A stretch of DNA of 64,000 bases, from positions 1 through 64,000 of the forward strand of contig JADFUR010000002.1 in the NCBI GenBank assembly GCA_015222055.1, written 5' to 3'. The DNA is from Bacteroidota bacterium. GTDB taxonomy: Bacteria; Bacteroidota; Bacteroidia; Bacteroidales; B39-G9. Below, piece by piece: positions 20,102-38,433 of the stretch. How positions within the stretch are numbered: the first letter of the stretch is position 1; the number at the start of each line of letters is the position of its first letter. The notes beneath the pieces were generated by a model. It searched no databases, was not told the origin of the DNA, and saw nothing but the letters and a program-made list of their open reading frames with translations. The position numbers were made by a program, and so were the translations under genes.

Positions 20102-21364
20102 ATGAATAAGCTTTTTGCTTTAGTTGATTGCAATAATTTTTTCGTGTCGTGTGAACGGGTTTTTAATCCTAAGCTAGAAAATAAACCTGTTGTTGTCCTC
20201 TCTAATAATGATGGATGTATTATTTCTCGTTCTAATGAGGCTAAATCTCTTGGATTAAAAATGGGAAGTCCATTTTTTAAGCTTAAAGATTTTTTGAAGC
20301 AAAATGAAGTAACAGCTTTTTCTTCAAACTATTCATTATACGGCGATATGTCGCAGCGAGTAATGTCAATTTTGGCAAAATTTTCATCAAACATAGAAAT
20401 TTATTCAATTGATGAAGCTTTTTTAGATTTTTCAGGTTTTGATTATTATAATATTAAAAATTATGCTCGTGAAATTAAGCGAATTGTTTTTCAATGGACA
20501 GGGATTCCTGTATCGGTGGGAGTTGGAACAACAAAAACATTAGCCAAGATAGCAACTCATATAGCAAAAAAGAATGATATTTTAAAAGGAGTTTTTATAA
20601 TTAAGGATGAGAAAGAACTAAATAGTTTCTTAAAAGATATTCCTGTAAACGAAGTGTGGGGTATTGGAAAGCAATTTAATAAGAAATTGATAGCAAATAA
20701 TATTAATACTGTATTTAAATTAAAAAATGCTGAGCAACAATGGATAAAGAAAAATTTTGGCATTGTTGGTTTACGAACGATTAAAGAATTAAATGGGCTT
20801 TCGTGCATATCTATTGAAAGAGTTGCAAGAAACAAAAAAGGTATTACTTCATCACGTTCATTTGGCAAACCTGTTACTGAGTATGAAGATTTACGTCAAG
20901 CAATTTCATCTTATATTACTACTGCATCAAGGAAACTTAGGAAACAAAAATCCTTAGCAAATATTTTAACAATCTATATTTTAACCAATCGTTTTGATAA
21001 GGAACATTTTTATTACAATCATAAGGTTATAAAACTACCTCTTCCAACAAATAATACTTCTACATTTATTACATTTGCTAGTGAGGCACTTCGGAATATT
21101 TATGTAGATGGATTGAAATATAAAAAAGCTGGTATTATGCTGAGTGAAATAATTCCTGAAGAACATACGCAATTAAGCCTTTTCGATAATGTTGATATTA
21201 AGAAAAGCAATATTTTGATGACTACTATTGACAATATTAATGAGAAGATGGGAACAGGAACAATTAAATCTGCAAGTGAGGGTTTTGATAAGAAATGGAA
21301 AATGAAGTCAGAAATGCGATCAAGAGAATTTACAACTTGCTGGGATGATATTTTGGAAGTATAA
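20102..21364 (+). CDS. umuC: UmuC-like Y-family DNA polymerase (Pol V)
   Basis: This Y-family polymerase has 420 residues, of normal length. Catalytic carboxylates are D9 (LFALVDCNNFFVSCERVF) and D104/E105 (EIYSIDEAFLDF). The steric/nucleotide site SNNDGCIISRSNEAK and the helix-hairpin-helix thumb (VNEVWGIGKQFNKKL) follow, then the little-finger domain (ITSSRSFGKPV). The C-terminus ends in the UmuC-specific KWKMKSEMRSREFTTCWDDI. It copies across DNA lesions with low fidelity. It is coupled to umuD, and the pair stands between DUF3467 and an iron-sulfur protein gene. Confidence 0.96.
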   Translation: MNKLFALVDCNNFFVSCERVFNPKLENKPVVVLSNNDGCIISRSNEAKSLGLKMGSPFFKLKDFLKQNEVTAFSSNYSLYGDMSQRVMSILAKFSSNIEIYSIDEAFLDFSGFDYYNIKNYAREIKRIVFQWTGIPVSVGVGTTKTLAKIATHIAKKNDILKGVFIIKDEKELNSFLKDIPVNEVWGIGKQFNKKLIANNINTVFKLKNAEQQWIKKNFGIVGLRTIKELNGLSCISIERVARNKKGITSSRSFGKPVTEYEDLRQAISSYITTASRKLRKQKSLANILTIYILTNRFDKEHFYYNHKVIKLPLPTNNTSTFITFASEALRNIYVDGLKYKKAGIMLSEIIPEEHTQLSLFDNVDIKKSNILMTTIDNINEKMGTGTIKSASEGFDKKWKMKSEMRSREFTTCWDDILEV

Positions 21365-21383: not shown

Positions 21384-22736
21384 ATGAGAAACATTTTGCT
21401 AATAAATTTATTTTTAGGATTATTGATTTTTATATCAATGGTTTATATTTCATTTATTTCTTTTATTGAAAAAGAAAATAGAGCAGGTTTTATATCAATT
21501 TTGTTGTCCTTTATTTTGTCGGCTCCTTTTGTTTCTGTTTCATTAATTAGTTTTCCTTATAGAGATATATTTTCTGTTGTTTTATTAATATTGTCAATAC
21601 TTGTAGTACTAATTTTATTTTTGCCAATTAATATTTATAAAGATAAAAAGTATTATATACCAGAAAAAAAATTAGATGAAAGAAACGTTATGTTCTCTAG
21701 AAATGAACTAGAGAAAGGAACTGAAAGGTTTAATAATTATTATGAAGATAAGCCTGAGTTTGAAAAGTTAGATGATAAATTTCGAGAGAAAGCGGGCTTG
21801 TTATCTAAAGATTCTTTGTATTATGACCCAGTTTCTTTTTCTGCTGCAAAAGCAAATTTTGATGTCATTGAATATTTTAGGAAAGCTGTTGATGGAAAAT
21901 CTAGCGAGAATAAAATTGAAGTAAACCCTCAAAGGATTACAAATTTTATTAAAAAATGGGCAAAACGCAATGGAGCAGTATCGTTTGGTGTTACTGAACT
22001 TAAAAAGTATCATTTATATTCGCATAAAGGCAGAGGCGATTTGTATGCTAAGGAGATAACTAATAATCATCCATATGCAATTGCATTTACTGTTGAAATG
22101 AGTGAAGATTTAATGAGATGTGCTCCAAAAGGTTCTGTCATAATGGAATCGTCTCAACAATATTTAAATTCAGGGGTTATTGCTGTTCAAATTGCTTCTT
22201 TTATAAGAGAAATGGGATATTCGGCTCGAGCTCATATAGATGGTAATTATGAACTTATTTGTCCGCTTGTTGCTCGAGATGCAGGTTTAGGTGAAATTGG
22301 GCGAATGGGCTTATTAATAACTCCAAAATTGGGTTCAAGAGTGAGAATAGCTGTTGTAACTACAGACATTCCTTTAATAATTGATAAGAAAAAACAAGAT
22401 AACTCGGTAATTGATTTTTGTACTATTTGTAAAAAATGTGCAGATGTTTGTCCTTCACGTTCAATTTCTTTTGACGACAGAAAATTTATTAATGGAGCCT
22501 TAAGATGGCAAATTTGTCAGGAAACCTGTTTTACTTATTGGTGTACTATTGGAACCGATTGTGGAAAATGTATGGCTTCTTGTCCTTATTCTCACCCAAA
22601 TAATTTGATGCATAATTTTATACGTTGGGGAATTTCCAATTCAATGATTTTTCGTAGGTTCGCATTAAAGATGGATGATTTATTTTACGGAAGAATACCA
22701 AAAGTTGCAGAAATGCCTAAATGGATTGAACATTAA
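21384..22736 (+). CDS. Membrane-anchored reductive-dehalogenase-like iron-sulfur protein
   Basis: This protein of 450 residues has three N-terminal membrane helices (about 4-27, 33-57 and 63-82), a linker, then a RdhA-like domain. The segment [25 protein letters not shown] (297-321) is close to the cobamide-binding part of reductive dehalogenases, whose relative QueG has a similar fold. The first [4Fe-4S] site is C346, C349, C352, C356; a second includes C393, C396 and C400 ([16 protein letters not shown]). The C-terminal DDLFYGR also resembles RdhA proteins. There is no Tat signal, unlike respiratory dehalogenases, and no RdhB anchor gene next to it; the protein's own helices could anchor it. 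The active site would probably face the cytoplasm. Substrate and corrinoid use are unproven. It follows umuC by 19 bases. Confidence 0.75.
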
Positions 22737-24820: not shown

Positions 24821-25588
24821 CTATTTTATTTGCTTAGCTAAATCTAAAAACAATTGCATTCCTTTAAGTTTTTTTTCGTCAAGATTATAGCTTATGTTTT
24901 TATTATAATATTCTTCAATATTAAAATTGTTATACTCCTTATGGTTTTCTCTAAAGTCGTTTATAGCTGATTTAATATTTTTAACACCAAATTTAAGCGA
25001 ATTATTAAAATTATCAACAAATTGTTTGTCAAGATTTTTGTTTGATACCCAACAAGCAAAAACAAAAGGTAAATCTGTGTATTTTATCCATTCTTCAGCT
25101 AAATCGTATTTATATTTATATTTATTATTGATATTAAAAGTGCGATCTCCAATAATTACATAAGCTGAATTTTTTGATAATAGTTTATTTTCAAAACCTT
25201 GTTCTGTTTTTAGAAATTTAACATCTATTTTCCAGAATTTTTTTGCTAATATTTGAGCCAGCAATATAGACGTTCGCGACTGATAATCTAAATAAATAGT
25301 TTTTATTTTTTGAATAGGAACATCGGAAACTAAAAGAACACTTTTAACTTGTGAAGTAGCACCAATGCAGAAATTTGAAACAATATTATAATGTTGTAAC
25401 TCAGGAATTATTGCAACAGGAACAAGACCTATGTCAACTTTGTCGGTTAATAGCTTTTGTGCACATAATGATGGCATATCCTCGTATATCTGACAATTAT
25501 TTTTCATAAATTCAGAATCTTGCATTCCTAAAATAAAAGGTTGCGAATTAGTATAAGAAACTACTGATATTTTAATTTTATCTTCCAA
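24821..25588 (-). CDS. mqnA: Chorismate dehydratase MqnA (futalosine menaquinone pathway)
   Basis: This 255-residue protein has a periplasmic-binding-protein-like fold. The N-terminal KISVVSYTNSQPFILGM, the EDMPSLCAQKLLTDKVDIGLVPVA segment and LDYQSRTSILLAQIL are typical of MqnA/MqnD-type enzymes, with the length and Ser/Asn placement of MqnA. MqnA converts chorismate to 3-enolpyruvylbenzoate, the first step of menaquinone synthesis by the futalosine route. This suggests the organism makes menaquinone by that route and not by MenF-MenD. No other mqn gene is in the window. It is the first gene of a minus-strand run with nfeD and the GNAT. Confidence 0.88.
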   Translation of the reverse strand: MEDKIKISVVSYTNSQPFILGMQDSEFMKNNCQIYEDMPSLCAQKLLTDKVDIGLVPVAIIPELQHYNIVSNFCIGATSQVKSVLLVSDVPIQKIKTIYLDYQSRTSILLAQILAKKFWKIDVKFLKTEQGFENKLLSKNSAYVIIGDRTFNINNKYKYKYDLAEEWIKYTDLPFVFACWVSNKNLDKQFVDNFNNSLKFGVKNIKSAINDFRENHKEYNNFNIEEYYNKNISYNLDEKKLKGMQLFLDLAKQIK

Positions 25589-30016: not shown

Positions 30017-32386
30017 ATGATTAGAAAAATATTAATGTCATCATTATTAATATTATTGCTCTCTTGTCAGAACAATAATAAATTGATTATTCCTCTTGAA
30101 TCGAAAATTTTTGGGCTTGCTACTCCAATTTATCTTAACCAGAATAAGACGATTATTCATTTGTCTGATTTTATTATTAATGTTGCTGAAATTGATTCAA
30201 TTAAGGCTGATAGTAACTTAGTTTTAGATATTTCTGCCGATAAACAACAATTGACAATTGAAACAAAAAATAATTTTTTGCCAAAACTTTCAAGTCTTAA
30301 TATATGGTCTGATGGATTTAGATATGATATTCTTGTGAAAAAATCACGAAAAGTAAATTATAATATTCAATTTGATGCTAAAGGAAAAAAATATTCTAGC
30401 GTTCAAATTACAGGAGATATAAACGGTTGGAACCCCAAAGCAACTAATTTAGAAAATAATAACGGTATTTGGGAGAAAGAAATTAGTTTAAATCCCGGGA
30501 AATATAGTTATCAAGTTGTATTGGACGGTGAGTGGATGTTAGACACTAATAATAAAGATTCTGTTGATAATAACAATGGAGGCTTTAATTCGCTTATGAA
30601 AGTGGGCAATTTTAATCCTGAGCTTAGTCCTGAATTATATACTAATAATTACAATGATAATGAGATTAATATAACCAGTAACTCCAAAATTAGTAAGTTT
30701 TACGCATTTTGGCAAAATTATGAGTTAGATAAAAATTTTGTAAAAATTATCAAAAACACAATTAGTATTAAAATTCCTGATGAAGCAAAAAAAATTAAAC
30801 GTTCATTCATTAGAGTGTGGGCATATAACGAACAAGGAGTTTCTAATGACATTTTAATTCCTCTCAATTATGGGAAAGTTATGAGTAATTCTAAAGAGAT
30901 TATTCGAAGTGATAAGCAAGCACTGGTAATGTATTTTTTAATGGTTGACCGTTTCAATAATGGCGATAAAAATAACGACCATCCTTTAAAAGATACGAAT
31001 ATTTTACCTAAAGCAAATTATTTTGGTGGTGACATAACTGGCATTGTGCAAAAAATTGAACAAGGTTATTTTTCCGACTTAGGAGTAAACACAATCTGGA
31101 TATCACCAATTGCACAAAATCCTCTTGGGGCTTATGGTGAATATCCAAAACCACACACAAAATTTTCAGGCTATCATGGTTATTGGCCAATCTCTTCGTC
31201 AAAGGTTGATTACAGGTTTGGTACACAAAAAGAAGTCGAAAATTTTATTAACGTTGCACATAAAGATAATTTCAATGTTCTTTTAGATTATGTTTCAAAT
31301 CATGTTCATCAAAATCATCCTTTATATAAGAATCATCCTGATTGGGCTACTTCAATGTATTTACCCGATGGGACAAGAAATCTTGAGAAGTGGGATGAAT
31401 ACCGCTTGACAACATGGTTCGATACTTTTTTGCCAACATTAGATTTTTCAAAATCAGAAGTTGTTGATTTAATGACAGATTCGGCTGTTTACTGGATAAA
31501 GACTTTTGATTTCGATGGCTTTCGTCATGATGCTACTAAGCACATTCCTGAAGTATTTTGGCGTACTTTAACTAAGAAGTTGAAACTACAAATACCTAAA
31601 AACAAAGCTTTATACCAAATTGGGGAGACCTATGGAAATAGAGATTTAATAGGGAGTTATGTAAATTCAGGAGAGCTAGATGCTCAGTTTGATTTTAATG
31701 TTTATGACGATGCTGTTGCTGTTTTTGCAAATGATGATCAGTCATTTTTAAGATTAAAAAATTCAATTCTTCAAAGCTTTTTATACTATGGGAATCATAA
31801 CCTGATGGGTTATATTACAGGAAATCAAGACCGAGGTAGGTTTATATCTTATGCTAGTGGCGATTTGTTATTTAACGAAGATGCAAAAAAAGCAGGATGG
31901 ACCCGAAAAATTGAAGTTACAAACCCTGTTGGATATAAGAAACTTGCTTCATTAATAGCTTTTAATATGACAATACCCGGAGTTCCTGTTATTTATTACG
32001 GCGATGAAATTGGAATGCCGGGAGGTAACGATCCTGACAATAGACGAATGATGCGTTTCGATAATTTAAAACCCGAAGAAGCAAAGCTTAAAGAAATTAC
32101 TACAAAATTAATTTTTTTACGAAGAAATAATTTATCGCTTATTTATGGAGATTCTAAAATTCTTGAAGCTTCTGATAAGACTTTTGTTTACGCAAGAAAA
32201 TATTTTAACAAAGTATCTATTATCGTTTTTAATAAAGATAATATTGAAAAAAACATTTCGTTTAATATACCTGAACAGTTTGAAAATAGGAAACTAAAGA
32301 CAAGTTTTAATGCGGAATTTAACATAGAGAAAAATATAATAAGTGTTAAATTGCCAGCTAATTCGTTTGAAATACTAACGAATTAG
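30017..32386 (+). CDS. GH13 alpha-amylase-family lipoprotein with an N-terminal CBM48-like domain
   Basis: This 789-residue protein begins with a lipoprotein signal (lipobox LLLSC, Cys17), so it is membrane-anchored, probably in the periplasm or at the surface. Residues about 110-200 form an AMPK/CBM48-like glycogen-binding domain (SVQITGDINGWNPKATNL, then ISLNPGKYSYQVVLDGEW). The GH13 barrel begins near 295 (ALVMYFLMVDRFNNGD). Catalytic residues are nucleophile D505 (DFDGFRHDATKH), acid/base E537 (IGETYG) and D605 (TGNQDRGRF; the usual NHD reads NQD). It should hydrolyse alpha-1,4-glucans such as starch, glycogen or maltodextrins. It is the first of three GH13 genes in a row. Confidence 0.92.
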   Translation: MIRKILMSSLLILLLSCQNNNKLIIPLESKIFGLATPIYLNQNKTIIHLSDFIINVAEIDSIKADSNLVLDISADKQQLTIETKNNFLPKLSSLNIWSDGFRYDILVKKSRKVNYNIQFDAKGKKYSSVQITGDINGWNPKATNLENNNGIWEKEISLNPGKYSYQVVLDGEWMLDTNNKDSVDNNNGGFNSLMKVGNFNPELSPELYTNNYNDNEINITSNSKISKFYAFWQNYELDKNFVKIIKNTISIKIPDEAKKIKRSFIRVWAYNEQGVSNDILIPLNYGKVMSNSKEIIRSDKQALVMYFLMVDRFNNGDKNNDHPLKDTNILPKANYFGGDITGIVQKIEQGYFSDLGVNTIWISPIAQNPLGAYGEYPKPHTKFSGYHGYWPISSSKVDYRFGTQKEVENFINVAHKDNFNVLLDYVSNHVHQNHPLYKNHPDWATSMYLPDGTRNLEKWDEYRLTTWFDTFLPTLDFSKSEVVDLMTDSAVYWIKTFDFDGFRHDATKHIPEVFWRTLTKKLKLQIPKNKALYQIGETYGNRDLIGSYVNSGELDAQFDFNVYDDAVAVFANDDQSFLRLKNSILQSFLYYGNHNLMGYITGNQDRGRFISYASGDLLFNEDAKKAGWTRKIEVTNPVGYKKLASLIAFNMTIPGVPVIYYGDEIGMPGGNDPDNRRMMRFDNLKPEEAKLKEITTKLIFLRRNNLSLIYGDSKILEASDKTFVYARKYFNKVSIIVFNKDNIEKNISFNIPEQFENRKLKTSFNAEFNIEKNIISVKLPANSFEILTN

Positions 32387-32409
32387 TATTTGCAAGAAAA
32401 CGTGCATAT

Positions 32410-32490
32410 TGTTATTTCGATTAGAAGGAGAAATCTCATAACACAATGTATATAAGTTGAATGGGATTTCTCACTTCGTTCGAAATGACA
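32410..32490. repeat. Imperfect intergenic palindrome (81 bp)
   Basis: The outer arms TGTTATTTCGA (32410-32420) and TCGAAATGACA (32480-32490) are complementary apart from one G-T pair. Inner arms of the GAGAAATC/GATTTCTC type fold inside. It lies between the first two GH13 genes and lacks a T-run. It looks like a dispersed Bacteroidota intergenic repeat, but no second copy is in the window. Confidence 0.6.
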
Positions 32491-32559
32491 GCATAACTAA
32501 AATTTTACGGTTTTTTTTTGACACTAATTAAAGTTTAATATAAAAATTAAAATAAAATT

Positions 32560-33909
32560 ATGAAAATCATCAAAAAAATATTTTTAGCGTTAATTGCAAT
32601 AGCAAGCGTTTCTTGTAGCAACAATGAAGGAGAATTATCAAAAGTAAATCATCCTGAATGGGCAAAAAACAAAAATATTTATGAAGTAAATATACGCCAA
32701 TATACTCCTGAAGGCGATTTTAAAAGTTTTGAGAAAAATCTACCCAGATTAAAAGATATGGGTGTTGATATTCTTTGGATAATGCCTATTCAGACTATTG
32801 GAGAAAAGAATAAAAAAGGAAAATTGGGTAGCTATTATTCAATAAAAGATTATTTAGCAGTAAGTCCTGAGTTTGGAACAATGGATGATTTTAAACATCT
32901 TGTAAATAAGGCACATGAGTTAAAAATGTATGTTATTCTTGATTGGGTTGCAAATCATACTTCATGGGACAATAATTTAATTACCGAGCATCCTGAATGG
33001 TACACCCACGATACATTAGGCAATATTGTTTCGCCTGTTGAAGACTGGACCGATGTAGCAGATTTAAATTATTATAATAATGAATTGAGAACATACATGA
33101 TTAATGCATTAGAATTTTGGCTTAAGAAAGCCGATATTGATGGTTTTAGGTGTGATGTTGCAGGAATGGTGCCAATAGATTTTTGGAACGAAGCCAGAAA
33201 ACAATTAGATAAAATAAAACCTGTTTTTATGCTTGCAGAATGGGAATCCCCAGAGCTTCAAAAACATGCTTTTGATATGACATATAGCTGGTCACTTAGT
33301 GGTTTGATGAATGATATTGCTAAAAAAATTAAAACTGCTGATAAACTTGATACTTTGTTTACGAAAATAAATATTGATTATGATAAGGATAATTATTTTA
33401 TGAATTTCACAACTAATCATGACGAAAATTCATGGAATGGAACTGTTTTTGAACGTTTAGGTGAAGGTGCTAAGGCTTTTGCTGTGCTAACTGCAACTAT
33501 TCCAGGTATGCCATTATTATATAGCGGTCAGGAAGCAGCTATGAGTAAACGATTACGTTTTTTTGACAAAGATACTATTGAGTGGGGTGATTATAAATAT
33601 GCTGATTTTTATAAAATTTTATTAACTCTTAAAACAAAAAACAAAGCTTTATGGAATGGTAACCAAGGCGGTGATTTAATAAAAATAAATTCGTCAAACG
33701 ATAAAGCTGTTTATTCATTTGTTAGAGAAAAAGACGGCGATAAGGTTTTTGTTATACTTAATTTATCAGAAACAGAACAAGATATTACTTTAAATGGTCA
33801 AGAATATGCTGGAGCTTATAAAAATATTTTCACCAATGAAGATGTTGAATTTAAATCAAATACCGAATTAAAACTAAAACCTTGGGAATATTTGGTTTTC
33901 GAGAAGTAG
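32560..33909 (+). CDS. GH13 alpha-amylase lipoprotein
   Basis: This 449-residue lipoprotein (signal ending SVSCSN, Cys20) consists of a compact GH13 catalytic domain and a short beta-sandwich. The barrel starts IYEVNIRQYTPEGDF. Catalytic residues are D199 (GFRCDVAG), E227 (LAEWES) and D288 (TTNHDENS), and the DWVANHTS motif of conserved region I is present. Family members cleave internal alpha-1,4 bonds of starch or maltodextrin. The Cys anchor suggests an envelope location. It lies 173 bases after the first GH13 gene, with a palindromic repeat between, so the two may have separate transcripts. Confidence 0.93.
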   Translation: MKIIKKIFLALIAIASVSCSNNEGELSKVNHPEWAKNKNIYEVNIRQYTPEGDFKSFEKNLPRLKDMGVDILWIMPIQTIGEKNKKGKLGSYYSIKDYLAVSPEFGTMDDFKHLVNKAHELKMYVILDWVANHTSWDNNLITEHPEWYTHDTLGNIVSPVEDWTDVADLNYYNNELRTYMINALEFWLKKADIDGFRCDVAGMVPIDFWNEARKQLDKIKPVFMLAEWESPELQKHAFDMTYSWSLSGLMNDIAKKIKTADKLDTLFTKINIDYDKDNYFMNFTTNHDENSWNGTVFERLGEGAKAFAVLTATIPGMPLLYSGQEAAMSKRLRFFDKDTIEWGDYKYADFYKILLTLKTKNKALWNGNQGGDLIKINSSNDKAVYSFVREKDGDKVFVILNLSETEQDITLNGQEYAGAYKNIFTNEDVEFKSNTELKLKPWEYLVFEK

Positions 33910-34056
33910 TGTTTCTTATAGAAATATATTAATTCATAATTTTTATTTTTATCAAAAAGCTGTAACGATTATTTAGGAAAAGGCACGCCTTTGAAGGGAT
34001 AAATGGAAGTTTTAACTGAGTGTATTATATTAATATGTTAGCAATAAGCTAAATGC

Positions 34057-34082
34057 GATAATAGCAACAAAATTGCAAGTTG
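34057..34082. repeat. Left flank of an imperfect inverted repeat around the toxin-antitoxin pair
   Basis: GATAATAGCAAC followed by TTGCAA mirrors GTTGCTATC (34692-34700) preceded by TTGCAA (34676-34681) after the toxin gene. Spacing differs between the arms. Confidence 0.4.
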
Positions 34083-34102
34083 GAAAAAAAGTTATAAATT
34101 TG
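34073..34102 (+). promoter_or_regulatory. Promoter of the toxin-antitoxin pair
   Basis: TTG (34073-34075), 19 bases, then TAAATTTG (34095-34102), 17 bases before the antitoxin ATG. The -33 element lies inside the left inverted-repeat arm. Confidence 0.6.
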
Positions 34103-34119
34103 AATAAAATTAATAAAGA

Positions 34120-34362
34120 ATGGATTTACAGACACGAAAAATAACATTTGTTCAGGAATTTCTTCGACTACAAAATGAAGATATAATCAGTGGATTGGAA
34201 AAATTGTTACAAAAACGGAAATCAGAATTATATAAAAAAGAACTTAAACCAATGGACTTGAAACAATTTAATAATGAAATTGATCAAGCACTTGATGATT
34301 CCGAAAATGATAGAATTATTAAAGCTACTAATTTAAAATCTAAAATTGAGAAATGGACTTAG
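34120..34362 (+). CDS. Antitoxin of a ParE/RelE-type module
   Basis: This 80-residue, mostly helical and charged protein (DLQTRKITFVQEFLRLQNEDIISGLEKLLQKRK, then MDLKQFNNEIDQALDDSEND) has the layout of the short Bacteroidota antitoxins paired with RelE/ParE toxins: an N-terminal helical region and a C-terminal arm that wraps the toxin. Its last 10 bases overlap the toxin gene, as is usual for such pairs. It probably represses its own promoter at 34073-34102. I do not see a clear ribbon-helix-helix, so the DNA-binding mode is open. Confidence 0.75.
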   Translation: MDLQTRKITFVQEFLRLQNEDIISGLEKLLQKRKSELYKKELKPMDLKQFNNEIDQALDDSENDRIIKATNLKSKIEKWT

Positions 34363-34670
34363 CAGTTTATTGGACACAATTTGCAAAGAATAAACTGGAT
34401 GACATTTTTGATTACTATAAAACAAAAGCCGATATTTTGATAGCCCGAAAATTATTAATTGGAATTGTTGATAAAACAGTTGGACTTAATAAGAATCCTT
34501 ATATTGGACAAAAGGAAGAGTTTTTAATTGACAGACCACAAGAATTTAGGTATTTAATTTTTAAAAGTTATAAGATATTATATTGGGTTAACGATGGTAA
34601 AAATAGAATTGAAATTGTAAATATTTTAGATTGTCGACAAAATCCCATAATAATAATTGAAACCGAATAA
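34353..34670 (+). CDS. RelE/ParE family toxin
   Basis: This 105-residue basic protein has the RelE/ParE fold signature: the N-terminal AVYWTQFAKNKLDDIFDYYKTKA helical hairpin, then PYIGQKEEFLIDRPQEFRYLIFKSYKILYWVNDGKNRIEIVNILDCRQNP. The pattern YRYLI...YKILYWV...I..I.D.RQNP is typical of the ParE/YoeB-like branch. Target (gyrase or ribosome-bound mRNA) cannot be decided by eye. The gene overlaps the antitoxin by 10 bases, and the pair interrupts the GH13 cluster. Confidence 0.85.
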   Translation: MDLAVYWTQFAKNKLDDIFDYYKTKADILIARKLLIGIVDKTVGLNKNPYIGQKEEFLIDRPQEFRYLIFKSYKILYWVNDGKNRIEIVNILDCRQNPIIIIETE

Positions 34671-34726
34671 AAGCAGTTGCAAACATACCATGTTGCTATC
34701 GTTAAACTAAAAAAAGACAACAATGA

Positions 34727-34900
34727 ATATTTTTATTCCAAGGTTTAAAATTTGAATTGGATGATGAAAAAAATATTATTAAGAAAAATGTAGATAATAG
34801 ATATTTAATTTTTAATAGAATAAAATAAAATGGGGAAAAAGTACTTTTTTTCATTGATTATATATCTGGTAAAATATTGAAAGAGATTAATAATCAATAA
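34727..34900 (+). pseudogene. Relic of a gene's 3' end with an in-frame stop
   Basis: One frame reads QGLKFELDDEKNIIKKNVD, then NRYLIFNRIK, TAA at 34826-34828, and continues in the same frame as NGEKVLFFIDYISGKILKEI up to TAA at 34898-34900. Both halves look like ordinary protein (alternating hydrophobic strands) and join sensibly if the TAA is read as a sense codon. The upstream part of the frame closes at 34724-34726. I take this as the C-terminal remnant of a lost gene, left next to the toxin-antitoxin pair. No family is recognised, and chance cannot be excluded for so short a piece. Confidence 0.4.
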
Positions 34901-34939
34901 AAAATAAAATTTAACCCTATAGCATAGCATCAGACAATT

Positions 34940-36811
34940 ATGAAAAATAAAACTCATTTAAGAACATTAATATTTCTAATAATTTTTTTACTCACCTTTT
35001 CACACTTATCATTTTCAAATAATATATCTCTAGAGAGAGTAGAGCCAATGTTTTGGTGGGCAGGTATGCAAAATCCTGATTTGCAGCTTCTGGTTCATGG
35101 CGAGAATATTTCACAAGCTGAAGTAAGTATTAATTACGAAGGTGTTAAACTAAAAAAAGTTAACAAAGTAGAAAATCCTAATTATTTATTTCTTGATATT
35201 GTTGTTTCAAAAAATGCTAAACCCGGTATTTTTGAAATTAAGTTTAAAAAAAACAACAAACTTGTTGAAACATATAAATATGAATTAAGAGAACGAAATA
35301 CAAAAACTGATATTAATAAAGGTTTTGATGCTTCGGATGCAATCTACCTTTTAATGCCCGATCGTTTTTTTAATGGTAATCCGGCAAACGATAATATTAA
35401 GCTAATGCCTGATAAATCAGACAGAAAAAATCCTGATGGTCGTCATGGTGGTGATATACAAGGTATTATTAATCATGTTGATTACATCGAAAATTTAGGT
35501 TTTACGGCAGTTTGGATGAATCCGCTTTTAGAAAACAATATGCCCAAATATTCATACCATGGATATGCAATAAGCGATTTTTATAAAATTGATAAGCGTT
35601 TAGGTACAAATAGCGATTATGTGAACCTTGTGGATTCTTGCCATAAACATAATTTAAAAGTTATTATGGATATGGTGTTTAATCATTGTGGTATAGAAAG
35701 CTATTTTATTAAAGATTTGCCAATGAAGGATTGGATACATCAGTTTCCTGAATTTACGCGCTCAAATTTTCATGCACCGACGGTTATTGATACTCATGCT
35801 TCAGATATTGATAAAGATGTAATGACAAATGGTTGGTTTGACACAAATATGGCTGACTTTAATCAAAAAAATAAATTTCTTGCTAATTATTTAATTCAAA
35901 ACAGTATTTGGTGGATAGAATATTCAGGAATCGACGGAATAAGAATGGACACTTATCCATATCCTGATAAAGATATGATGGCAGAATGGACAATGCGAGT
36001 ATTTGCTGAATATCCAAATTTTAATATTGTTGGTGAAACGTGGGTACAAAAAGTTCCTTTTGCTGCCTATTGGCAAAAAGATTCAAAAATATCAGGCAAC
36101 TATAATTCAATGCTTCCCAGCTTAACCGATTTTCCATTATACTCTGCAATAAATAAGGCGTTTAACGAGAAAGAAGGCTGGACAGAAGGAATGGCTCGTT
36201 TATATTATGTTTTAGCACAAGATTTTTTATATCCTAATCCAAATAATCTGCTTGTCTTTGTCGATAATCATGATTTAGATCGTGCTTTTTCGTCACTAAA
36301 TAAGGATATTAAAAAGTATAAAATGGCAATGGCTTTTTTATTAACTGTTCGTGGTATTCCCCAAATATACTATGGAACAGAAATTTTAATGGATGGTTTA
36401 TCTTCGCAAGGACATGGTTTTATTCGTAAAGATTTCCCCGGAGGATGGAAAAATGACAAAGTAAATGCATTTACAGCTAAGGGAAGGAGTGCTTTGCAAA
36501 ATGAAGCTTTTGATTATTTGCAGAATATTTTAACTTGGAGAAAAAATCAAGCTGTAATAAGTAGGGGAGAATTAAAACATTTTATTCCCGAAGATGGCGT
36601 TTATGTATATTTTCGTTATATCGAAAACAAAACTGTTATGATTATTTTAAATAATAACGAAGAAGCAGACAAAGACCTTAACACAAAAAGGTTTGCAGAG
36701 TGCATGAAAGATTACAAATCAGGATTTGACATAATTTCACACAAACAAATAGATAATTTAAAGAATATAAAAGTAGCTGCAAAATCAGCTATGATAATTG
36801 AATTGAAATAG
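34940..36811 (+). CDS. GH13 cyclomaltodextrinase/neopullulanase-like enzyme, exported
   Basis: This 623-residue protein has a cleavable signal peptide (about 1-26, FSHLSFSNN) and no lipobox, so it is probably periplasmic. An N-terminal beta domain (LERVEPMFWWAGMQNPDLQLLVHG) is the cyclomaltodextrinase/SusA-type N-domain. The GH13 barrel follows, with D337 (GIRMDTYPYPD), E366 (IVGETWV) and D445 (FVDNHDLDR). The C-terminal small domain closes the protein. SusA-type neopullulanases degrade imported maltodextrins to glucose and maltose in the periplasm. With the two GH13 lipoproteins upstream it makes a surface-to-periplasm starch route, but no SusC/SusD pair is present. Confidence 0.92.
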   Translation: MKNKTHLRTLIFLIIFLLTFSHLSFSNNISLERVEPMFWWAGMQNPDLQLLVHGENISQAEVSINYEGVKLKKVNKVENPNYLFLDIVVSKNAKPGIFEIKFKKNNKLVETYKYELRERNTKTDINKGFDASDAIYLLMPDRFFNGNPANDNIKLMPDKSDRKNPDGRHGGDIQGIINHVDYIENLGFTAVWMNPLLENNMPKYSYHGYAISDFYKIDKRLGTNSDYVNLVDSCHKHNLKVIMDMVFNHCGIESYFIKDLPMKDWIHQFPEFTRSNFHAPTVIDTHASDIDKDVMTNGWFDTNMADFNQKNKFLANYLIQNSIWWIEYSGIDGIRMDTYPYPDKDMMAEWTMRVFAEYPNFNIVGETWVQKVPFAAYWQKDSKISGNYNSMLPSLTDFPLYSAINKAFNEKEGWTEGMARLYYVLAQDFLYPNPNNLLVFVDNHDLDRAFSSLNKDIKKYKMAMAFLLTVRGIPQIYYGTEILMDGLSSQGHGFIRKDFPGGWKNDKVNAFTAKGRSALQNEAFDYLQNILTWRKNQAVISRGELKHFIPEDGVYVYFRYIENKTVMIILNNNEEADKDLNTKRFAECMKDYKSGFDIISHKQIDNLKNIKVAAKSAMIIELK

Positions 36812-37000: not shown

Positions 37001-37471
37001 ATGAAACCAGAGATACATAACATATTAATTGCAGTAGACGAAAAGGATAACTGGGAGTATCCAAAGAAATTTCGTTGGGATAAGCGAATGAAACTAATTC
37101 AAGAGTTAAAGAAAGATTTTGAATCTGTATTTAAGTTTGAACTTGATATTGACAAAAATGTTCAAGACGCTTCATTTACAACCGATTTGGGAATTTTAGA
37201 TGATAAATTCTATGACCGAAAGACTGGAACAGGTTCTTTGAGATATCTTTTCTCTTTTAGGTTTTCAAATTTTGGAAATCTTTTTACAATTTTAAACTTA
37301 CCTGATAAAAAAGGTGAATACTACAAAGAGACAGTGACTTGTATGAAAATATTAAATGATAAGGGATTTGTTTTTATAGATTCTTCTGAACTTGATGATA
37401 TTTACGATGGAGTTAATGAACCTTATGAAAATGGATTAACTTGGTGGACAAGATACTTTGATTACTTATAA
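37001..37471 (+). CDS. Hypothetical protein, first gene of an unknown two-gene module
   Basis: This soluble protein of 156 residues has no signal peptide or membrane helix. It is rich in aromatic residues and Asp (for example NWEYPKKFRWDKRMKLIQELKKDF; GSLRYLFSFRFSNFGNLFTIL; WWTRYFDYL). I recognise no family. The start ATG follows the right end of spacer A by nine bases. Its stop codon lies in CTTATAACCCAACGC, whose TATAAC resembles the left end of the nearby palindromic spacers, and the next gene begins eight bases later. The tight spacing argues that both products act together. A small effector or immunity-type protein is possible, but this is only a guess from context. Confidence 0.6.
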   Translation: MKPEIHNILIAVDEKDNWEYPKKFRWDKRMKLIQELKKDFESVFKFELDIDKNVQDASFTTDLGILDDKFYDRKTGTGSLRYLFSFRFSNFGNLFTILNLPDKKGEYYKETVTCMKILNDKGFVFIDSSELDDIYDGVNEPYENGLTWWTRYFDYL

Positions 37472-37479
37472 CCCAACGC

Positions 37480-38433
37480 ATGGAAAAACTTGAATTACAC
37501 TATTATTTAGAAAATGAATCTCATGCTATGGATGCATTTGTTAAAAATAAAGCTGAATCAGAAGTTTTAAAGATACTAACTGAGGTTTCTGAACTGCTAG
37601 AGTTAGATTTATCTTTTGAATTAGAAGCTATTCAAGAAGGTGGAATTCGGGAATTTATTAAATTCTTATCTAAGAAAAAGAATAGAAAGAAAATATTACC
37701 TATTCTGACATTTATAGGAGGTATCTTATCCGTTGTCATAGCGGATGTTTCTTCTGATTACTTAAAGAAAGATAAGGAATACGAAAATCTTAAGAAAGAA
37801 GAAATTAAGCTCAATATTAGAAAATTAAAACAAGAACTTGAAGAAGATAACCTTTCTGAAAATGATACAACGGTAATTATTAACAATATTGTTTTAGTAT
37901 TATCAAATTCAGATAAAGTAAAGTTTCATAAATCTAATTTTTATTCAACGTTATTAAAAGAATCAAAGATTGAAAAAATCTCGACTACAGAACTTGATGA
38001 AAACTACAATCCTATTTCAAAAGAAAATATAGTATTGCGTGAAAATTTTAGGTCTTTTATTATTGAGAGTAACAAAGTAGAATCTGAAATAATTGACAAC
38101 GCAACGATTGAAATTGTTTCGCCCGTATTTAAGGCTGGAAAGACTAAGTGGAAAGGTTTTTATGATTCAAGAAGTTTTAGTTTCAGTTTAAATGACCAAG
38201 AATTTAAAAAATCCGTTTTGAATAAGGAATATAGTTTTACTAGTGGAACAATGTTAAAATGTACGTTAGAAGTGGAAAAGGAGATGGATAACGAAGGAGA
38301 TATAAAAATTACTGGTTATAATGTTTTTGACGTTCAATCGGTTTTTGAAGGAGAAAGCTTTAAACCTACCAAAAGAGCAAAACGAGAAATTGAAGACAAA
38401 AGACAGTTATCTATGAACTTTGAAGATGAATAA
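37480..38433 (+). CDS. Hypothetical single-span membrane protein, second gene of an unknown module
   Basis: This 317-residue protein has an acidic N-terminal part, a basic stretch (FLSKKKNRKKI, about 66-77), one membrane helix (LPILTFIGGILSVVIADVSS) and a long charged coiled-coil-like segment (KKDKEYENLKKEEIKLNIRK onward). A C-terminal beta-rich part follows (TIEIVSPVFKAGKTKWKGFY, then EYSFTSGTMLKCTLEVEKEM). I do not recognise the family. The architecture, with a helix, membrane span and a beta-rich cytoplasmic domain, suits a membrane-linked sensor or effector. It is eight bases after the previous gene, and spacer B begins two bases after its stop codon. Confidence 0.6.
   Translation: MEKLELHYYLENESHAMDAFVKNKAESEVLKILTEVSELLELDLSFELEAIQEGGIREFIKFLSKKKNRKKILPILTFIGGILSVVIADVSSDYLKKDKEYENLKKEEIKLNIRKLKQELEEDNLSENDTTVIINNIVLVLSNSDKVKFHKSNFYSTLLKESKIEKISTTELDENYNPISKENIVLRENFRSFIIESNKVESEIIDNATIEIVSPVFKAGKTKWKGFYDSRSFSFSLNDQEFKKSVLNKEYSFTSGTMLKCTLEVEKEMDNEGDIKITGYNVFDVQSVFEGESFKPTKRAKREIEDKRQLSMNFEDE

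Follow-up and report, generated by a model that had tools for sequence, protein, structure and literature searches.

The window analysed here, the whole 64,000-nucleotide stretch of DNA, carries at positions 21384-22736 of its forward strand an open reading frame with an ATG start that encodes a protein of 450 residues. The frame passes the cut-off of NCBIfam TIGR02486 (RDH; 166.6 bits against 160.35) and lies below that of Pfam Dehalogenase PF13486 (11.9 against 24.3 bits), and phmmer matches it to the solved relatives NpRdhA (2.9e-38), SmPceA (6.2e-34), DhPceA (1.2e-27) and QueG (3.4e-6). Given the TIGR02486 score, the NpRdhA match and the 48-54% identity to the window protein of six long matches in related genomes, the resemblance goes far beyond chance. 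The features considered below are these, with the basis of each in parentheses.

20102..21364, forward strand: UmuC-like polymerase gene, 19 bases upstream of the hybrid gene (absent among the recurrent neighbours listed)
21384..22736, forward strand: the whole gene, a fused RdhB-like anchor and RdhA-like catalytic domain, 450 residues (open reading frame, TIGR02486, model)
21387..21545, forward strand: TMH1, E29xE31 loop and TMH2, residues 2-54, the hairpin judged RdhB-homologous (profile ranking, conservation)
21561..21620, forward strand: TMH3, residues 60-79, predicted to return the chain to the ExE-loop side (model helix, charge distribution)
21924..22385, forward strand: presumed part of the corrinoid site, about residues 181-334, with Tyr260 (22161-22163) and Arg321 (22344-22346) (PDB match, conservation, model)
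22419..22454, forward strand: [4Fe-4S] motif 1, C346xxC349xxC352xxxC356P (sequence, family conservation)
22527..22586, forward strand: [4Fe-4S] motif 2, C382 ... C393xxC396xxxC400P, with C382 upstream (sequence, family conservation)
22593..22691, forward strand: C-terminal helix pair with H404, H410, R414, D431 and Y435, a possible menaquinol pocket (DhPceA alignment, conservation in 81/81)
24821..25588, reverse strand: MqnA-like menaquinone biosynthesis gene, 2 kb from the hybrid gene (PF02621, 9.6e-50)

The first-pass annotation had read this frame as an RdhA-type protein with three N-terminal helices, a cobamide-type segment and two iron-sulfur motifs but no Tat signal, and on each of these points it was right: the TIGR02486 cut-off is passed and the fold matches NpRdhA and DhPceA, model helices lie at residues 2-28, 32-54 and 60-79, the segment it called cobamide-type is a 15-letter stretch at residues 300-314, both iron-sulfur motifs are present, and no Tat motif occurs in the sequence of the frame.

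Proteins of this kind were described as "hybrid putative RDases" by Atashgahi 2019 (PMC6797604), which cites Jochum et al. 2018 for their earliest sighting. The passages on hybrids in that paper describe proteins that lack a Tat signal and an rdhB and usually have three N-terminal helices, with an ExE motif linking the first two, in hosts from Bacteroidetes, Deltaproteobacteria and candidate phyla; its table, tallied by hand, holds 69 hybrids, with Marinilabiliales accounting for 8 of the 11 pure cultures. Relevant passages of later papers state that hybrids had still not been shown to be functional (PMC9303371, 2022) and that their function was still to be assessed (PMC10624902, the 2023 structure paper). 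RDase transcripts from Bacteroidales bins, some without a complete Tat motif, were reported during PCE dechlorination (PMC12090745, 2025), and the sections of that paper on the Bacteroidales RDases hold no protein assay. Dibromophenol is reported to induce a Marinifilaceae RDase (PMC12908670, 2026), which is unlikely to be a hybrid because the corrinoid RDases described in the relevant part of that paper carry a twin-arginine motif. We found no assay of any hybrid in the literature searched, most subscription journals lying outside its reach. The frame at 21384-22736 is another hybrid putative RDase and belongs to a class that is not novel, having been published in 2019.

Among 60 related genomes, the window's own included, nine gave a match, which in G057 and G018 is broken or partial. 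In a sample of 392 genomes drawn evenly from the phylum there were nine matches, full length only in the window's own genome, with the other eight partial and 30-38% identical. An alignment-based scan of genome contigs confirmed 204 relatives; a single-sequence scan of genome contigs found none. The window protein and 80 of the 204 relatives make up the family set of 81 sequences, and 18 of the 80, counted from record titles, fall outside Bacteroidota, under titles that include Chlorobiota, Spirochaetales, Gemmatimonadota, Chloroflexi, Latescibacterota and Fibrobacterota. Anchor and charge counts use 78 full-length rows, which are related to one another; in L015, L018, L046 and L082 the ExE glutamate is preceded by just 10-15 residues, probably from start choice. 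Marinifilum sp. N1E240 carries both a hybrid (L033, L152) and a Tat-bearing RdhA (L137), the latter adjoined downstream by an RdhB (109 residues, ExEPRAA) and a further membrane protein that is RdhC-like by eye, and since the two coexist, the hybrid is not simply a stand-in for the classical system in this organism. Bacteroidota also hold a separate, soluble-looking RdhA/QueG-like family (L129-L134; open frames of 317-435 residues), which is 30-32% identical to the hybrid core and has ECLRxY and EHPxGD in six of six rows.

Fold, phylogeny and conserved residues

An AlphaFold model made with 60 sequences (pLDDT 94.7, pTM 0.91) has DhPceA (8q4h_A) as its top Foldseek match (2.3e-20). VIA comparisons gave Z 37.3 with NpRdhA (335 residues, 2.4 Å), Z 36.2 with DhPceA (349 residues, 2.8 Å), Z 33.2 with SmPceA and Z 15.1 with QueG. 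Structure prediction, which the first-pass annotation had called for, is in line with its RdhA reading over 335-349 residues at 2.4-2.8 Å, with the corrinoid pocket standing as a prediction. A tree of the catalytic domain, also called for there and built by a quick method with a long-branch warning from 59 rows and 263 columns, united 31/31 hybrid rows in one group (support 99) and 13/13 QueG rows in another (support 100), placing the window protein outside QueG; with this tree and the matching fold, neither outcome that the first-pass annotation had set against its reading came about. The hybrid group, which includes Marinifilum sp. N1E240 and Ancylomarina euxinus M1P (the latter in Table 1 of PMC6797604), joins the catabolic RdhAs (support 89, not starred) and not the Tat-bearing ones. 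Membership in QueG is ruled out by fold and tree as well as by score, the NCBIfam QueG model TIGR00276 giving 38.7 bits against a cut-off of 200.

Tyr260, Asp286, Arg319, Arg321 and all eight cluster cysteines are invariant in 81/81 family members, as are His404, His410, Arg414, Asp431 and Tyr435. In the PDB alignment, where DhPceA numbering was reached through a 48-residue shift of our own (precursor 551, chain 503), Arg321 corresponds to R396 and Tyr260, the catalytic tyrosine that the first-pass annotation had wanted checked, to Y337; both DhPceA residues are called essential in the relevant part of PMC10624902. His404, His410, Arg414 and Asp431 correspond in turn to K489, H495, R499 and D515, and Tyr435 lies one residue off Y520. 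These five residues form the menaquinone pocket of DhPceA according to the part of PMC10624902 on quinone binding, which also places the ExE signature at the quinone site and states that some pocket residues are conserved in RDases of quinone-less organisms as well.

The reference sequences differ in how they fill these positions. Position 410 is His in 3/3 Tat-bearing references and Glu in 3/3 catabolic ones (His in 0/3), and position 414 is Arg in 3/3 catabolic references and varies (E, D or K) among the three that bear a Tat signal; the Trp that follows Arg414 in the window protein is also found in the three catabolic references, and position 431 is Asp in all six. Of the pocket residues, His410 alone tells the Tat-bearing and catabolic references apart. 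At position 321 the three Tat-bearing references have Arg, the three catabolic references Lys and the 13 QueG rows Phe or Tyr. On these alignments, His410 and Arg321 side with Tat-bearing RdhAs and Arg414 with DhPceA and the catabolic RdhAs, and conservation of the putative pocket supports quinol use without proving it. Asp286 is matched by Asp in 13/13 aligned QueG rows and by A, N, Q or V in six classical RdhA references, and in the phmmer alignment it faces SmPceA Asn272 (numbering counted by hand); its equivalence to the QueG Asp is unsure, because the loop is gapped and both DhPceA and the Marinifilum RdhA have GND nearby.

The membrane anchor and its orientation

The ExE signature reads E29-K-E31 in the window protein, and among the full-length rows E29 is present in 78/78, E31 in 74/78 and the extended form ExExxA/G in 74/78. 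A profile of helices 1-2 built from 77 hybrid N-termini ranked four RdhBs as the top 4 of 5,294 sequences, with E-values of 1.2e-6 to 0.0032 against 0.55 for the best decoy; these four, named from their position after rdhA, are two near-identical Sulfurospirillum sequences, one from Dehalococcoides and one from Marinifilum. Because RdhBs take the top four places, the hairpin is by profile evidence RdhB-derived, its two helices being homologous to the ExE hairpin of RdhB. The first-pass annotation had the N-terminal helices replacing the RdhB anchor; the profile ranking indicates instead that the anchor is itself fused RdhB-like sequence.

Compared with the PDB by sequence, the first 100 residues gave no match up to E 10, and RdhB queries found no RdhB there. 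No adjacent rdhB or RdhC gene was found by blastp with three RdhBs and one RdhC against the six-frame open reading frames of the window and 80 loci, a survey in which short hydrophobic queries are insensitive and whose single RdhB match was the hybrid frame of L034 itself. A loose pattern flagged Tat signals in L049 and L051, and these were discarded as signal peptides since the double Arg sits just after the ExE loop.

Lysine and arginine are unevenly distributed about the helices, with 26.4 K+R per 100 residues in the ExE loop and 23.8 after TMH3 against 1.7 and 4.3 on the opposite side, and in 78/78 full-length rows the ExE loop and post-TMH3 stretch are richer in K+R than the other side. 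Three RdhBs are reversed, with K+R at 0, 1 and 1 of 12 positions in the ExE loop and 3, 4 and 3 after the last helix, and the relevant part of PMC10624902 has the ExE loop of PceB on the P-side. By the positive-inside rule, which is a rule and not a measurement, the catalytic domain of the hybrids is predicted to be cytoplasmic in 78/78 full-length members, and the cytoplasmic placement proposed in the first-pass annotation agrees with this charge pattern. The window protein's C-terminus is likewise predicted to lie inside, and the Tat signal peptide, a feature of classical respiratory RdhAs, is absent. The most economical reading has the unit inverted when it was fused, with the third helix carrying the catalytic domain round to where the ExE loop lies.

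The single orientation predicted for the whole family disagrees with Table 1 of PMC6797604, as far as that table goes, in which TMHMM splits the orientations two ways and makes many members exoplasmic. Those assignments would favour an external catalytic domain like that of classical RdhA, with export independent of Tat. We think this very unlikely, as the charge pattern points inside in all 78 rows and the hybrids lack the Tat signal by which classical RdhA is exported in the description given by PMC10624902. The "exoplasmic" hybrids of the 2019 table are probably not exported.

Gene neighbourhood and host genome

When the 657 neighbouring open reading frames of the 81 loci were clustered and judged by eye from their first 80 residues, the commonest neighbour family occurred in 14/81 loci, and no rdh, corrinoid or halogen gene was recognised among the 22 listed families that each occur in at least five loci. 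The upstream neighbour shares the strand of the hybrid gene in 50/72 cases and the downstream neighbour in 50/76. On these counts, the UmuDC genes beside the window gene are taken as a chance association. The MqnA-like gene suggests that the organism makes menaquinone. Further along the window, 30017-36811 holds three consecutive alpha-amylase-like genes (translations read by eye), a possible starch-use cluster, and 37001-38433 holds two adjoining open reading frames of 156 and 317 residues, the 156-residue one being without a Pfam match at 0.001.

Three cobalamin riboswitches occur in the window's genome (G000); the genes that follow them encode proteins with DUF4465, with DUF6580 and with a secretion-system sorting tail, and after the gene for the tailed protein come genes for a TonB-plug receptor and a DUF5074 protein. 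CobS, the sole cobalamin-synthesis marker used, was not found in G000. With three riboswitches beside surface and TonB genes and no CobS, corrinoid salvage is likely in this host, which speaks to the question of uptake or synthesis raised by the first-pass annotation. Among the units after cobalamin riboswitches, the large surface-type protein L113 (3222-7532) and the DUF4465 protein L112 (1782-2747) are perhaps corrinoid-binding surface proteins.

In G000, a draft in 118 contigs that is 98.6% complete, neither a second RdhA nor a QueG was found over cut-off, and no QueH was found. The genome has two QueA genes (L110, L111; frames of 352 and 415 residues), so that the final step of queuosine synthesis is unaccounted for. 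That combination would fit a hybrid acting as a membrane-bound QueG substitute in epoxyqueuosine reduction, an idea we consider scarcely credible and have rejected: 8/8 other hybrid-bearing related genomes keep a QueG of their own over cut-off, and the hybrid is therefore not a general QueG stand-in. The distance from QueG in tree and fold, the Phe or Tyr that QueG has in place of Arg321 and the draft state of G000 all weigh against it as well.

Proposed mechanism and comparison with known systems

We favour, at a probability of about 55%, the reading of the hybrid as a single-chain, inside-facing menaquinol:acceptor oxidoreductase with a salvaged corrinoid. Its support in silico comes from the fold, the residues, the homology of the fused parts and the charge pattern; the menaquinol donor, the bound corrinoid, the type of substrate and the lack of a direct contribution to the proton motive force are what we infer. 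An RdhB-like ExE hairpin and one extra helix would be joined to an RdhA domain, which should carry a corrinoid together with two [4Fe-4S] clusters. Because the third helix returns the chain to that side, the catalytic domain could sit on the ExE loop as PceA does on PceB, with the whole assembly facing the cytoplasm. The most likely electron donor would be menaquinol, bound where the hairpin meets the C-terminal helix pair; its electrons would travel by way of both Fe-S clusters to cob(I)amide and from there to the substrate on the cytoplasmic side, where Tyr260 would serve as proton donor with the assistance of Arg321. An organohalide is a plausible substrate, and a similar leaving-group compound could take its place. 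Protons would be released and used on the same side of the membrane, unlike with a Tat-exported enzyme, and hence no redox loop with an N-side quinone reductase would be expected.

Several observations pull against this menaquinol-linked reading. The nearest RdhA relatives in the tree are catabolic and not Tat-bearing (support 89, not starred), only H410 discriminates among the pocket residues while K489 is His in the hybrids, TMHMM makes many members exoplasmic in the table of PMC6797604, the invariant Asp286 is unlike the six classical references, and no rdh, corrinoid or halogen gene appears among the recurrent neighbours listed. The grouping with catabolic RdhAs, the predicted cytoplasmic side, and the presence of Arg414 and its following Trp in the three catabolic references would also suit a catabolic or detoxifying dehalogenase tethered on the cytoplasmic side and supplied with electrons by a soluble ferredoxin or flavodoxin, with the hairpin only an anchor. 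We hold this to be possible but clearly the less likely account, given that His410 occurs in 81/81 hybrids and 3/3 Tat-bearing references but 0/3 catabolic ones, that position 321 is Arg as in the Tat-bearing references and not Lys, and that the hairpin keeps the ExE signature placed at the quinone site in PMC10624902, so far as its account of that site goes.

The proposed mechanism overlaps with a third account, which we entertain tentatively: menaquinol would drive a corrinoid reductase acting on something other than an organohalide, such as an epoxide, an ether or a hydroxylated compound. Asp286, present in 81/81 hybrids and aligned with Asp in 13/13 QueG rows where six classical RdhAs have A, N, Q or V, would fit such a substrate, as would the lack of any recognised halogen gene among the recurrent neighbours listed; the gaps in the Asp286 loop and the GND nearby in DhPceA and the Marinifilum RdhA weaken the comparison, and both residues of organohalide reduction, Tyr and Arg, are retained. 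A bolder and rather doubtful extension would have the hybrids as inside-out relatives of PceA2B2 in which the RdhA Tyr/Arg and a QueG-like Asp together reduce a cytoplasmic, possibly non-halogenated substrate, the enzyme serving to dispose of electrons or to detoxify instead of ending a chain that builds proton motive force.

New here are the RdhB homology that the profile assigns to the first two helices, the uniform inside orientation predicted for the family, and the invariance of the catalytic and pocket-aligned residues. Hybrid RDases are present in many sediment bacteria, most of them uncultured, and may be taken there for a sign of organohalide respiration. Should they face the cytoplasm, they would take no part in organohalide respiration of the classical kind, and tallies of this sort in Bacteroidota and other phyla would have to be treated with caution. 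With the predicted orientation and quinone pocket, two questions from 2019 become testable, namely how export of the "exoplasmic" hybrids would work and where the electrons come from.

From the hybrid putative RDases of PMC6797604 the window protein differs in nothing essential, the two having in common a length of 450 residues, three N-terminal helices with ExE between helices 1 and 2, two Fe-S motifs, and neither a Tat signal nor a separate rdhB. The hosts, too, are Marinilabiliales and related organisms in both cases. QueG has the corrinoid and two-cluster core that is also expected of the hybrid's catalytic domain and shares the aligned Asp at 286, but it differs in tree position, in a Z of only 15 and in having no Arg321. 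Catabolic RdhAs (NpRdhA, 4RAS; Comamonas, Nitratireductor, Ruegeria), which published work describes as cytoplasmic and without Tat, have the same fold (Z 37), are nearest in the tree and have Arg at 414. They differ in a Lys for the hybrid's Arg321, in the absence of His410 and in their greater length of about 700 to 1,070 residues. Catabolic RdhAs have a C-terminal 2Fe-2S/flavin reductase part, and the catabolic reference H1 is annotated as a 2Fe-2S protein. The PceA2B2 complex of Desulfitobacterium hafniense (8Q4H), a menaquinol:organohalide oxidoreductase with DhPceA as its catalytic subunit, is, as far as it is described in PMC10624902, like the hybrid in catalytic fold, Tyr/Arg pair, two clusters, ExE hairpin and the His, Arg and Asp that align with its quinone pocket; it consists, however, of two chains and is Tat-exported to the P-side, whereas the hybrid is one chain with an extra helix, a predicted N-side location and His404 in place of Lys489.
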